Shown here: positions 30,931 to 35,328 of the stretch, piece by piece | How the letters are laid out: each line of letters begins with the position of its first letter | How positions within the stretch are numbered: the first letter of the stretch is position 1 | Source: Bdellovibrio sp. BCCA | Lineage (GTDB): Bacteria; Bdellovibrionota; Bdellovibrionia; Bdellovibrionales; Bdellovibrionaceae | NCBI RefSeq assembly: GCF_037996825.1 | Contig: NZ_JBBNAC010000001.1 | Location: 3,224,001 to 3,288,000 of the forward strand | Reading direction: 5' to 3' | Length of the DNA: 64,000 nt | Program-made: the position numbers and the translations under genes | The notes under the pieces: model-generated | The model's database searches: none | Seen by the model: only the letters and a program-made list of their open reading frames with translations | Told to the model about the DNA's origin: nothing

Positions 30931-32319
30931 TCAAAAGCTGATGGCGGCTTTAGATGCAAATCCAAATGTGAAACCGTTCCCCAACCCGTCGTTGCCATTT
31001 TTCCAAGCCTCGCCAGGGAAGAGAAGACCGACCTGATTCACCCACTGAATTCTTTCACTCGGCTTGTAAATCACTTCGATATCCCATTCTAGGCCCAGAT
31101 CTTTTGCAGAATCAACAGAGTTTTTTACTGTATTCAATAATTGTCCGTAAACGAGTGTGTTGCGAACATCTACACGATCATTCCATGCATAACCAACTGA
31201 CGGAGCGATGTACATCGCATTGCTGATGGATTCATCATCCGCAGAATTTCCAACATTCAAAGTTGTCGTGTTTTTGTAAACGTCTGTGTTCAAGAAATCT
31301 CTTTGCCCCAAACGATGATTGAAAAGAAGCATTCCCGCATCATAGTTACGGTTGAACGCATAACCACCGAAGTCCGTTGAAGATGGATCATCACCTGTTG
31401 CCATGCCCAGTTTCAATTTCCAGTCCCATTTTGACTCTGCACGAGGGATGTAAAGCTCGGCTGCGATACCGTAGCCATTCACGCTGACATCTTGAGTTCC
31501 CTTTGTCACACCTGTTTCACCAGATTGGAAACCGGCTTCAAGTTTGAATCCGAAAGAATCAAAACCACGACCCAAAACAAAGTTTGTTCTTTGCATGTTC
31601 AGACTTGAGTTCACGCCATCACCGCCAAAAGCAGCGATTTGATTTGCATCGTAACCCAAAACTTCTTTCACACCTTTGACGTTTTCTTGGTAAACGCCGA
31701 TCAAAGATTTATTTTCTTCACTTTCATATTGAAGTTGGAAACCTTGAGTTGTGATTGTGCCACCTTGACCGAACCCACTGGATTGTTTGCGAGAAAGAAC
31801 CGGCATGATGAACCAGTCACCGATCACAACTTTGTACGCCACCATATCGCGAGTGTCATACCAGTGATCAAATGCGCCCTTACCCGCGCTGTAAGTCATG
31901 CCCAAACCGAATTCAAAGGGAGCGCGACCTACAATCAAAGCGCCGTACTCTTGATTTACGTTCAAGTACAACTGGCTGACTTTGATATCTGTAGAACCCT
32001 GGTTTTCAGCGTTGCCCGGATTGGTATTTGTATTCATGCCCCAGATTTCACCGACTTGAGAGTTCGGATAAGCGCTGCTGTTTAGCACATCAAAGCGAGA
32101 GATGATATTCACCCCATCAGCCGCGATGATTTTTGGACTCAAGTAAAGGTAGTTCAAACCATAAGCTTTTCTTTGCGTGGGTGTTGCCAAAGAAGGACGA
32201 TCCACTTCGGTCCATTCAAAGCGGTAACCACCATTCCAATCCAAACTCATGGCATTGGCAGTTGTGGACAAAAGAGCCACAGAAAGACCTAAAGCTTTCA
32301 AAAGATTTTTTTTCAGCAT
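30931..32319 (-). CDS. Porin-like outer-membrane protein
   Basis: A 462-residue exported protein: signal peptide MLKKNLLKALGLSVALLSTTANA, then a long series of amphipathic strands with Tyr/Trp/Asn-rich turns (GGYRFEWTEVDRP, RAPFEFGLGMTYSAGKGAFDHW) and a terminal strand FGFASKAAISF. This is typical of a large (16- to 18-stranded) outer-membrane channel. ATG 32319 has AAGGA seven bases upstream; the ATG two codons earlier is too close to that site. The substrate is unknown. The gene lies 10 bases after the GroES-like gene. Confidence 0.75.
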   Translation of the reverse strand: MLKKNLLKALGLSVALLSTTANAMSLDWNGGYRFEWTEVDRPSLATPTQRKAYGLNYLYLSPKIIAADGVNIISRFDVLNSSAYPNSQVGEIWGMNTNTNPGNAENQGSTDIKVSQLYLNVNQEYGALIVGRAPFEFGLGMTYSAGKGAFDHWYDTRDMVAYKVVIGDWFIMPVLSRKQSSGFGQGGTITTQGFQLQYESEENKSLIGVYQENVKGVKEVLGYDANQIAAFGGDGVNSSLNMQRTNFVLGRGFDSFGFKLEAGFQSGETGVTKGTQDVSVNGYGIAAELYIPRAESKWDWKLKLGMATGDDPSSTDFGGYAFNRNYDAGMLLFNHRLGQRDFLNTDVYKNTTTLNVGNSADDESISNAMYIAPSVGYAWNDRVDVRNTLVYGQLLNTVKNSVDSAKDLGLEWDIEVIYKPSERIQWVNQVGLLFPGEAWKNGNDGLGNGFTFGFASKAAISF

Positions 32320-32329
32320 TTTCATTCCT

Positions 32330-32926
32330 TTATTTTGCAACGACACCCATCACATCCCCTTCACGAAGGATGATCAGGTCTTCATTTTGAATTTTAATTT
32401 TTGAACCCGCGTATTCAGAGAAAACAACGCGGTCGCCGACTTGAACGTCCATAGGACGAACGTGGCCTTTTTTGCCCATATGACCGCGGCCGACAGCCAC
32501 GACATATCCTTCCAGATTTCCCGAAGTGTCCGCGACCGTATCAGGAATGTACAAACCACCTGGAGTCATTTTTTCCGCACCAGATACTTGCACCAAAATA
32601 CGATCATCCAACGGAGTTACAAAACCACTGAGATCCAATTTTTTCGCAGGAACCGCCGCTTTCATCAAATGAGATGCCGCAGGTTTTGCCGCCGTCATTT
32701 TTTTCGCTGGAGCTTTTTTCGACACTGCTTTTTTTACGGCAGACTTCTTAGTCACAGTTTTTTTAACTGCCGTTTTCTTCGCAGACGCTTTTTTAGCAAC
32801 GGCCTTTTTTGCTTTCGCAGGTGCCGCGGATTTTTTTGTTACTTTTTTAGGAGTTTTTTTTGAGACGGTCTTTTTAGCGACCTTTTTCACATTGGCTTTT
32901 TTAGCAGAAGCTTTCTTCTTAGCCAC
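32330..32926 (-). CDS. GroES-domain protein with histone-H1-like Lys/Ala-rich N-terminal tail
   Basis: A 198-residue fusion. Residues 1-96 are almost only Lys, Ala, Val, Ser and Thr in repeated KKxxAKK/VKK patterns, like bacterial histone-H1-type DNA-binding tails. Residues 103-197 form a GroES/Cpn10 domain: TPLDDRILVQ, a mobile-loop-like GGLYIPDT (127 region), VGRGHMG, VQVGDRVVFSEYAGSKI and DLIILREGDVMGVV. The tail is an addition to the normal ~95-residue co-chaperonin. GTG 32926 is used because AAAGGA lies six bases upstream; ATG 32941 is an alternative. No groEL is adjacent, so it is unlikely to be the housekeeping groES. Confidence 0.85.
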   Translation of the reverse strand: MAKKKASAKKANVKKVAKKTVSKKTPKKVTKKSAAPAKAKKAVAKKASAKKTAVKKTVTKKSAVKKAVSKKAPAKKMTAAKPAASHLMKAAVPAKKLDLSGFVTPLDDRILVQVSGAEKMTPGGLYIPDTVADTSGNLEGYVVAVGRGHMGKKGHVRPMDVQVGDRVVFSEYAGSKIKIQNEDLIILREGDVMGVVAK

Positions 32927-33009
32927 AACCAATCCTTTCATCCAAACAAGCTTTGAAAAATAAAAGCAGCTTATTTGCTTCAGAGAGAGTTTCGTACTAC
33001 TCTTTATGT

Positions 33010-35328
33010 ATGTTGCGACCACGATTAAAGACCATTTTAATTGCTTTTACAATCCTTGTGACGCTTGTAATCATCTGCGGGCTTGGGATTGCCGGATATT
33101 CTTACTTCGCTCTTGAAAAAGAACTCACTGCCAAGTTGGAATCTAAAAAGTTCATCGTTCCGACGGAATTCTACGCAGCTCCGCCAACTTTTTATTCTCA
33201 TAGCGTGATCAAAATCAGTGATATCGAAAAGCAACTTCTGCGTCAGAACTATCGACGCCGCGACTACGACCAACGACTTTTACCCGGTGATTATTTTATA
33301 GCCAATCGCGAACAGTGCGCGTCCCGTTTGCAAGTGGGACTCAATGAAAATCAAGACGGATGTATCGGTTGGGTGACGATGGAAACTCCGACCCGCGATG
33401 TGGATAGCTCCATCCAGGTTGTCGTTGTTCAAAAAGATCAGCTTGTTTCACAAATTTTTAAAGGCGCACCGTTTGTTGAAGTTCCCGAAGCCCTCGCCGA
33501 AGCACCTCTTCTTGCACAATATATCGGCAACGAACCTTTGATGCAGAAAACGGTGACTTTAAGTGATGTTCCTCCGATGTGCTCAAACGCCATCATGTCC
33601 ATCGAAGATGCTCAGTTTTTAGAACACGGTGGAGTCAGCATCAAAGGGATCTTCCGGGCCCTGGTAAAAAACATCACAACGGGTAGAAAAGCTCAAGGTG
33701 GCAGCACCATCACTCAACAGCTCGTAAAAAACTATTTCTTAACGAGCGAAAGAACTTTGAAACGCAAGTTCAACGAATTCATTATGTCGATTCTTTTGGA
33801 GTCCCGTTTCAGCAAAGACGAAATCCTTGAAACCTATCTGAACGTTATTTACATGGGACAAAACGGCGCCTTTCAAGTGCGCGGTTACGGTTCAGCAGCC
33901 CGCTACTATTTCGGAAAAGAGTTGATGGACCTGAACTTGAGCGAATGCTCTTTGCTTGCAGCCATTGTCAACAGCCCCGGACTTTTCAACCCGTTTAAAA
34001 AACCAGTGAATGCAGAAAGACGCCGCCACTTGGTTTTGGAAAAAATGAAAGAGTTTGAGTACATCACGCAAGCTCAAGCGGAAGAAGCCGACAAAACACC
34101 ACTCCCTAGTGAACCTCGCACTTTGGCGTCGGAAACAGCGCCTTATTATCTCGATGCCGTTCGCAAGCAGTTGCAAAGTCAGGGATTAAATCCAGATGGA
34201 TTAAAAATTTATACGGCTCTTGATTTGGAAGCCCAGGAAGTCGCCCAAGAATCTTTACGAAATCATTTGGATCAACTTGAGAAAAATAATAAATACATCA
34301 GCGGCCTCAAAGCAAAAGGCAATAGCCTTGAAGGCAGTATTCTCGTAGGCAACAACAAAACAGGCCTCGTGAGTGTTGTGGTCGGCGGTCGCAACTACCG
34401 AATGACACAGTTCAATCGCGCCATTGATGGACACCGCCAAATTGGTTCAATCATGAAACCGTTCGTTTATCTTACGGCGCTTATCAATGACACCGACGAA
34501 GGCGCGCCTTATACGCCGATCACACTTTTGAACGATGAAAAGTTCACTTACAAATACGAGGGCCAAGCGTGGTCACCGGATAACTACGGAAAAAAATATT
34601 TCGGCACAGTTCCCATGTTCTATGCTTTGAAAAATTCTCTCAATGCCGCGACGGCATCTTTGGGAATTAAAGTCGGTTTAGGAAATGTCATTGATATTAC
34701 TCACGCGGCAGGTGTGACTTCGGAACTTAAATCCTTTCCCGCTATGACCTTAGGAGCTTTTGAAATGTACCCGCGCGAAGTTTTGCAAAGCTATATGACT
34801 TTCGCAAACATGGGGAAGAAACAAAACATGTCTTTCATTCGCAGAGCCTTGAATTCCGATGGACAGGAAGTTTTCATTCACCAACCTTCTCCTGAACAAG
34901 CCGTTGATGCGGCGGCCACGGCAAGCCTTGTGAGCATGATGAAACAAACTGTCCTTTCCGGAACAGCTCGCTCCATCACATTGAATGGATTTTTTAATCC
35001 CGCCGCCGGAAAAACCGGAACCACCAGTGATAACAGAGACGCTTGGTTCTCTGGATTCACACCTTATCTTACGACCGTGGTGTGGGTTGGTTATGACAAC
35101 AATCTTCCGCATAAATTGACCGGTTCCAATGGCGCTGTTCCTGTATGGACTCAGTTCATGAAAAAAATTGGAATCCGTTTCCCTGCCGATGATTTTGCAT
35201 GGCCGGAAAACACGAAAAAAGTTTTGCTCGATCAAAAAACTTTGGAAGGACTGAACGCGTTTAGAGAAAACGATCCAAGTCAGGTTGAACTGATCTTTGA
35301 CGAAGCCAAAGTTCCCAGTGGATTTTAA
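33010..35328 (+). CDS. Bifunctional class A penicillin-binding protein (PBP1)
   Basis: Synthesises and cross-links peptidoglycan from the inner membrane. The 772 residues from ATG 33010 begin with a basic stretch and one membrane helix (about 8-35). The GT51 glycosyltransferase domain (about 170-350) has catalytic Glu199 in SIEDAQFLEHGG and GGSTITQQLVKNYF. The transpeptidase domain carries the nucleophile S480-I-M-K483, S543-L-N545 and K668-T-G-T671. The segment before the GT domain (YRRRDYDQRLLPGDYF) resembles PBP1B rather than PBP1A. It is divergent from the GroES-fusion gene and overlaps the MBL gene end by four bases. Confidence 0.95.
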   Translation: MLRPRLKTILIAFTILVTLVIICGLGIAGYSYFALEKELTAKLESKKFIVPTEFYAAPPTFYSHSVIKISDIEKQLLRQNYRRRDYDQRLLPGDYFIANREQCASRLQVGLNENQDGCIGWVTMETPTRDVDSSIQVVVVQKDQLVSQIFKGAPFVEVPEALAEAPLLAQYIGNEPLMQKTVTLSDVPPMCSNAIMSIEDAQFLEHGGVSIKGIFRALVKNITTGRKAQGGSTITQQLVKNYFLTSERTLKRKFNEFIMSILLESRFSKDEILETYLNVIYMGQNGAFQVRGYGSAARYYFGKELMDLNLSECSLLAAIVNSPGLFNPFKKPVNAERRRHLVLEKMKEFEYITQAQAEEADKTPLPSEPRTLASETAPYYLDAVRKQLQSQGLNPDGLKIYTALDLEAQEVAQESLRNHLDQLEKNNKYISGLKAKGNSLEGSILVGNNKTGLVSVVVGGRNYRMTQFNRAIDGHRQIGSIMKPFVYLTALINDTDEGAPYTPITLLNDEKFTYKYEGQAWSPDNYGKKYFGTVPMFYALKNSLNAATASLGIKVGLGNVIDITHAAGVTSELKSFPAMTLGAFEMYPREVLQSYMTFANMGKKQNMSFIRRALNSDGQEVFIHQPSPEQAVDAAATASLVSMMKQTVLSGTARSITLNGFFNPAAGKTGTTSDNRDAWFSGFTPYLTTVVWVGYDNNLPHKLTGSNGAVPVWTQFMKKIGIRFPADDFAWPENTKKVLLDQKTLEGLNAFRENDPSQVELIFDEAKVPSGF

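Follow-up and report, generated by a model that had tools for sequence, protein, structure and literature searches.

The gene groES2 of Bdellovibrio sp. BCCA (genome size 4.01 Mb) encodes a Cpn10 (GroES) domain that is preceded by a lysine-rich tail resembling histone H1, and evolutionary evidence indicates that this tail is coding sequence. Within the limits of our searches, tailed GroES2 proteins were seen only in the order Bdellovibrionales. The window, i.e., the whole stretch of 64,000 nucleotides that was analysed, had been read before from its letters alone, and a fusion of an H1-like tail with a GroES domain had been proposed. The open reading frame is real, but it lies on the minus strand (Table 1), which the sequence-only reading had not stated; the plus-strand reading of the same interval contains stops and no gene. 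The gene itself is already known as Bd3349 of HD100, for which Lambert et al. (2012) presented expression data (PMC3464611). In contrast, no description of the tailed GroES2 protein as such was found in the literature.

Table 1. Positions of groES2, its parts and the genes discussed in the text (plain positions refer to the window)
Feature	Position	Strand	Remarks
groES2 (orthologue of HD100 Bd3349)	32330..32926	-	GTG start at 32926, TAA at 32332-32330; 198 aa
H1/Hc2-like lysine-rich N-terminal tail, residues 1-102	32621..32926	-	KKxxx pentamers; net charge +35
Cpn10 (GroES) domain, residues 103-198	32333..32620	-	mobile-loop motif GG-LYI = residues 123-127
Shine-Dalgarno (SD) motif AAGGA	32933..32937	-	6 nt 5' of the groES2 GTG; kept across the genus
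Outer-membrane protein gene (weak Alginate_exp match)	30931..32325	-	starts 4 nt after the groES2 stop
Penicillin-binding protein gene (transglycosylase + transpeptidase)	33010..35328	+	divergent; conserved upstream neighbour in the genus
groES1	C1:104615-104890		tail-less; just before groEL
groEL	C1:105012-106514		single groEL in the genome
SWIB-domain protein with N-terminal H1-like lysine tail	C1:1243044-1243430; L166:1528-1917	+ (C1)	Pfam SWIB 5.3e-30

The lysine-rich tail as coding sequence

The coding tests were performed with 47 orthologues with an intact N-terminus, including the gene in the window. In the six closest pairs, pS of the tail (0.15–0.36) was far higher than pN (0.02–0.07), and in frame-blind alignments of the tails 66 of 68 gaps were multiples of three; the pairs share ancestry, and thus these counts are not independent of one another. 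Not a single stop codon was present in the tail frame in 5225 codons of the 47 orthologues, whereas the other five frames contain 47–397 stops each. An SD motif is located 5′ of the upstream start in 45 of the 47 genes. In other genera, this start is overlapped by 8–14 nt by an upstream DUF507 gene, which gives independent support for the start that was chosen. The invariance of Met1-Ala2 in the alignment is no such evidence, because the starts of the orthologues had been picked with an Ala next to them. The excess of pS over pN, the gaps in threes, the lack of stops, the SD motifs, and the scarcity of internal ATGs (see below) are the reasons for regarding the tail as coding, and the earlier view of it as real protein sequence passed these tests.

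This result is at variance with the published annotation. Lambert et al. worked on the same gene in the same genus, also a second groES away from groEL. They judged the start of the 224-aa annotation of Bd3349 to be repetitive and moved it to a Met, which gave a protein of 117 aa (PMC3464611). According to this re-annotation, groES2 would encode a GroES of the ordinary kind with about 117 aa, and the tail would be an untranslated repeat. Three genus-mates (L033, L034, and L048) do have an in-frame ATG from which exactly 117 aa would be translated, in two of them together with a weak SD motif, but the other 21 genus members do not. Furthermore, in 28 of the 47 orthologues the stretch from residue 20 to the Cpn10 domain is devoid of ATG codons, and therefore the internal start that was published cannot apply in general. 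The coding signature of the tail, the conservation of the upstream SD motif and start, and the retention of the tail in more than ten genera also argue against it. An internal start leading to an ordinary GroES is thus highly improbable, and the re-annotation of 2012 is very probably wrong. The specific notion that the tail is an untranslated low-complexity repeat is rejected on the basis of the coding tests, the upstream SD motif, and the missing internal ATGs. What was a mis-annotated repeat in the earlier study appears here as a coding region and as the shared feature of a clade. A full-text literature search on Bd3349 revealed no further paper that treats the gene; in the one study found the tail was set aside, and primers and model were derived from the 117-aa form.

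Residues 1–102 contain 35% lysine, 24% alanine, and 1% Asp/Glu and have a net charge of +35. Lysines were spaced five residues apart in 24 cases, versus 11.8 expected from shuffled sequences (z 5.5; for the genus z about 19.1). The H1-like Lys/Ala repeats that had been noticed at residues 1–96 were thus borne out, with residue 102 as the end and a lysine every five residues as the pattern. For residues 1–90, AlphaFold predicted no secondary structure (pLDDT about 50–56). All 47 GroES2 proteins have a tail, with lengths of 67–194 residues, a lysine fraction of 0.24–0.46, and net charges of +18 to +94. Judged from these values, the tail is under compositional constraint, and its sequence is conserved mainly in composition. 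As all 46 other orthologues with an intact N-terminus also have the tail, the fusion that had been read from one gene is well beyond chance.

The Pfam model HC2 (PF07382) matched residues 2–96 with E=1.8e-5 and 25.4 bits, under its curated cut-off of 40. Lysine-rich pentamers and a length variation that keeps the frame are common to GroES2 and to Hc2 of Chlamydia and BpH1 of Bordetella (PF07382; PMC2848022), but the latter are stand-alone proteins, and the GroES2 tail does not reach the cut-off of their model. Hc2 binds DNA and RNA (PMC2848022). A search of the genome with the GroES2 tail alone retrieved one other place, a SWIB protein of 129 aa. Its N-terminal tail begins MAKAKKATTKKAAAKKAAPKK and comprises about 50 residues. 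Of 59 relatives, 57 have the SWIB protein, and all 20 loci that were read encode the tail. In Waddlia, a SWIB protein binds throughout the genome (PMC6426960), and the tailed SWIB protein lends support, by association only, to a nucleic-acid role of such tails in this lineage.

The Cpn10 domain and the distribution of tailed GroES2

The Cpn10 domain that had been recognized at residues 103–197 was found by the domain search far above the profile threshold. Residues 103–196 matched Pfam Cpn10 (PF00166) with E=1.1e-26 and 93.1 bits (cut-off 21.1) over profile positions 2–93 of 93, and this part of the protein also matched GroES/Hsp10 chains in the PDB. The AlphaFold model of residues 102–197 was aligned with solved GroES structures with Z values of 10–14, e.g., 3nx6 (Z 13.8, rmsd 1.1 over 75) and 1aon_O (Z 10.6, rmsd 2.7 over 95), and according to this model it has the beta-barrel fold of GroES. 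The NCBIfam models for the co-chaperone GroES gave a best score of 95 bits, below the NF001530 cut-off of 136, and all listed models stayed below their cut-offs. Therefore, GroES2 belongs to the Cpn10 family but is not a canonical GroES by the NCBI models.

The GroEL-contact tripeptide of the mobile loop (LYI, LFI, III, or LII) directly follows GG in 43 of the 47 GroES2 proteins and follows an inserted residue in 3 more; the corresponding tripeptides of GroES1 are LFI, III, and LYI. Because it has been kept in nearly all members, a repurposed Cpn10 fold, which had been considered as an alternative, is less likely. In the six closest pairs, pN of the Cpn10 core was 0–0.009 versus a pS of 0.15–0.29, and by this measure the core is under strong purifying selection. 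Taken together, GroES2 resembles canonical GroES/Cpn10 proteins, e.g., GroES1, in fold, in the mobile-loop tripeptide, and in domain length, whereas it differs in the N-terminal tail of 67–194 aa, in its place outside the groESL operon, and in the second half of the mobile loop, which is TSGN in GroES2 versus the EKP type.

A tree of the Cpn10 domain was calculated from 98 rows and 96 columns. All 47 tailed GroES2 proteins were on one side of a single branch (support 99/92, 100% of the bootstrap trees), in a tree that has few columns and several long branches. The GroES2 branches were longer than those of GroES1. The groES2/Bd3349 orthologue group forms this single clade and also has the neighbourhood of the genus, with the outer-membrane protein gene downstream and the penicillin-binding protein gene upstream. 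Among the matches listed, two Cpn10 genes occur in all 24 genus members and in most of the family, a single one occurs in several genomes from other parts of the order that are nearly complete, and where other Bdellovibrionota have a second copy, it lacks the tail or is a fragment. As groES2 is missing from several members of the order whose genomes are nearly complete, the gene is not essential in the lineage. One member of the order (G039, 99% complete) had no Cpn10 match.

A scan of named genomes for tailed GroES used patterns derived from the clade, which could miss tailed proteins whose Cpn10 domain is divergent, and yielded 80 loci. Lysine tails were present in 28 of them, and 27 of these are titled as or match Bdellovibrionota/Bdellovibrionales. 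The other 52 loci, from Nitrospirota, Myxococcota, Acidobacteriota, and others, and including ordinary groES genes of Bdellovibrionota, had no lysine tail. One tailed locus (L106, CALQIT020000002.1) is from a metagenome bin titled Streptomyces griseus; it is a groES2 of the Bdellovibrionales type, and the title is probably wrong. With regard to a phage origin, no relative was confirmed among viral contigs (one weak pattern).

Possible functions of GroES2

In HD100, groES2 (bd3349) is off early in predation and on at 2–4 h, i.e., during filament septation and prey lysis, and its repression goes through Bd0743 (PMC3464611). The chromosome of Bdellovibrio recompacts before septation, and the responsible proteins are largely unknown (PMC11318664). 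We estimate the probability at roughly 0.5 that GroES2 is an alternative GroEL lid that is made late and has tails that bind nucleic acid, i.e., the nucleoid, in the manner of PhaF and AlgP. Nucleoid association with recruitment of folding activity to DNA or RNA, as proposed in the sequence-only reading, is the best-supported interpretation, and we infer it from the following picture. The Cpn10 domain would form the usual ring, either alone or mixed with GroES1, and the conserved motif and the fold suggest that this ring caps the single GroEL via the kept mobile loop. Seven subunits with disordered tails of about +35 each would give the lid about 245 positive charges. The tails would bind DNA, and probably RNA, non-specifically, which would hold GroES2 and the capped GroEL on the nucleoid, and thus the tail may tie a folding machine to DNA or RNA. 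Synthesis of GroES2 would fall into the late stage of predation, in which filaments undergo septation and the daughter chromosomes recompact (PMC3464611, PMC11318664); the likely purpose of GroES2 would be folding activity at the nucleoid, or partitioning of the chaperonin with the nucleoid, during this late burst.

Binding of nucleic acid by the tail is suggested by its composition and periodicity, and this role gains support because the pentamer pattern is Hc2-like and the tail type is shared with the SWIB protein. PhaF and AlgP of Pseudomonas (PMC9239181) also consist of a module and a disordered H1-like repeat of Lys, Ala, and Pro, and for these two proteins DNA binding by the repeat and the placement of a cellular body relative to the nucleoid have been described. 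Such lysine-repeat tails bind DNA. The tail of PhaF presumably anchors granules at the nucleoid, and AlgP requires its tail for the spacing of granules (PMC9239181). However, PhaF and AlgP have C-terminal KPAA repeats and a granule-binding domain as the module, whereas GroES2 has N-terminal KKxxx repeats and a chaperonin lid. A nucleic-acid-linked chaperonin had been expected to be new. This does not hold in general, because GroEL1 of Mycobacterium tuberculosis, also a chaperonin component, has been reported to be nucleoid-associated (Basu 2009, as cited in PMC5904260). It is, however, a 60-kDa subunit with a His-rich C-terminus, and for GroES2 the nucleoid location is deduced. A co-chaperonin with a histone-like tail is not described in that review (PMC5904260). 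Arguments against a lid on the nucleoid are that neither GroES nor Bd3349 is mentioned in the main text of a nucleoid proteome paper, that the tail is conserved mainly in its composition, and that groES2 is missing from several genomes of the order.

The tail could also serve other functions. GroES2 might primarily be a nucleoid-compaction protein, whose Cpn10 ring is only a scaffold that brings seven H1-like tails together, with folding being secondary or lost. The tails would bridge or condense DNA (or silence RNA) upon entry into the attack phase, like Hc1 and Hc2 in the elementary bodies of Chlamydia. The Hc2-like pentamers, the SWIB protein with an H1 tail in the same genome, the timing, which fits the recompaction before septation (PMC3464611, PMC11318664), and the long GroES2 branches are in line with compaction. 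However, the Cpn10 core is under the strong purifying selection reported above and has kept the GroEL-contact tripeptide, for which a mere scaffold would have no use, and we regard compaction as an unlikely main function. It is likewise doubtful that the tail acts on folding itself or on another polyanion, e.g., via the charge of the cage, via acidic or RNA-bound clients such as ribosomes and nascent chains, or via polyphosphate. Polycations bind promiscuously and can have targets besides DNA, namely polyphosphate, RNA, membranes, and acidic proteins, and Lambert et al. suggested that late-stage proteins are served by a modified chaperonin complex (PMC3464611). In addition, groES2 is coupled to an outer-membrane protein gene, and elsewhere to DUF507, and not to chromatin genes; these neighbours do not point toward chromatin. 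On the other hand, nucleic acid is suggested as the target by the pentamer pattern and by the tail type that GroES2 shares with the SWIB protein.

To return to the nucleic-acid-binding lid, a wider scenario is more tentative: Bdellovibrionales would own nucleic-acid-tethered heptameric lids that dock GroEL on the nucleoid, or compact the nucleoid, at the transition from filament to attack phase, and one GroEL would serve two compartments with two lids. Provided that the tail is genuine, as the evolutionary data indicate, GroES2 represents a lid with a tail that was seen in this survey only in Bdellovibrionales, it would allow a direct test of lid-swapping as a route of a chaperonin to the nucleoid, and it is a candidate among the proteins that remodel the extremely compact chromosome of Bdellovibrio.

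Genomic context of groES2

The gene groES2 is not located beside groEL; it is the second Cpn10 gene of the genome, at a distance of 3.15 Mb, and the groES found beside groEL is groES1. A second groEL that could be the partner of groES2 is not present in the genome. No CIRCE/HrcA operator was detected near groES1 or groES2 at up to 3 mismatches, and a sigma-70 scan gave 2 promoter-like sites versus 1.2 expected. The divergent penicillin-binding protein gene is context and stands outside the groES2 system.

The AAGGA motif of the outer-membrane protein gene overlaps the groES2 stop codon, and the two genes have retained this order throughout the genus and also in several genera beyond it. Because of the 4-nt spacing, the overlap of SD motif and stop codon, and the conserved order, the two genes are probably co-translated. 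The tight coupling of the outer-membrane protein to groES2 across genera makes it a possible functional partner.

In Bdellovibrio itself, DUF507 is missing from the place upstream of groES2, and a search of this genome, run without a positive control, gave no match to DUF507. The order DUF507–groES2–outer-membrane protein gene was observed in many genera outside Bdellovibrio (L036, L052, L064, L068, L074–L079, and others).
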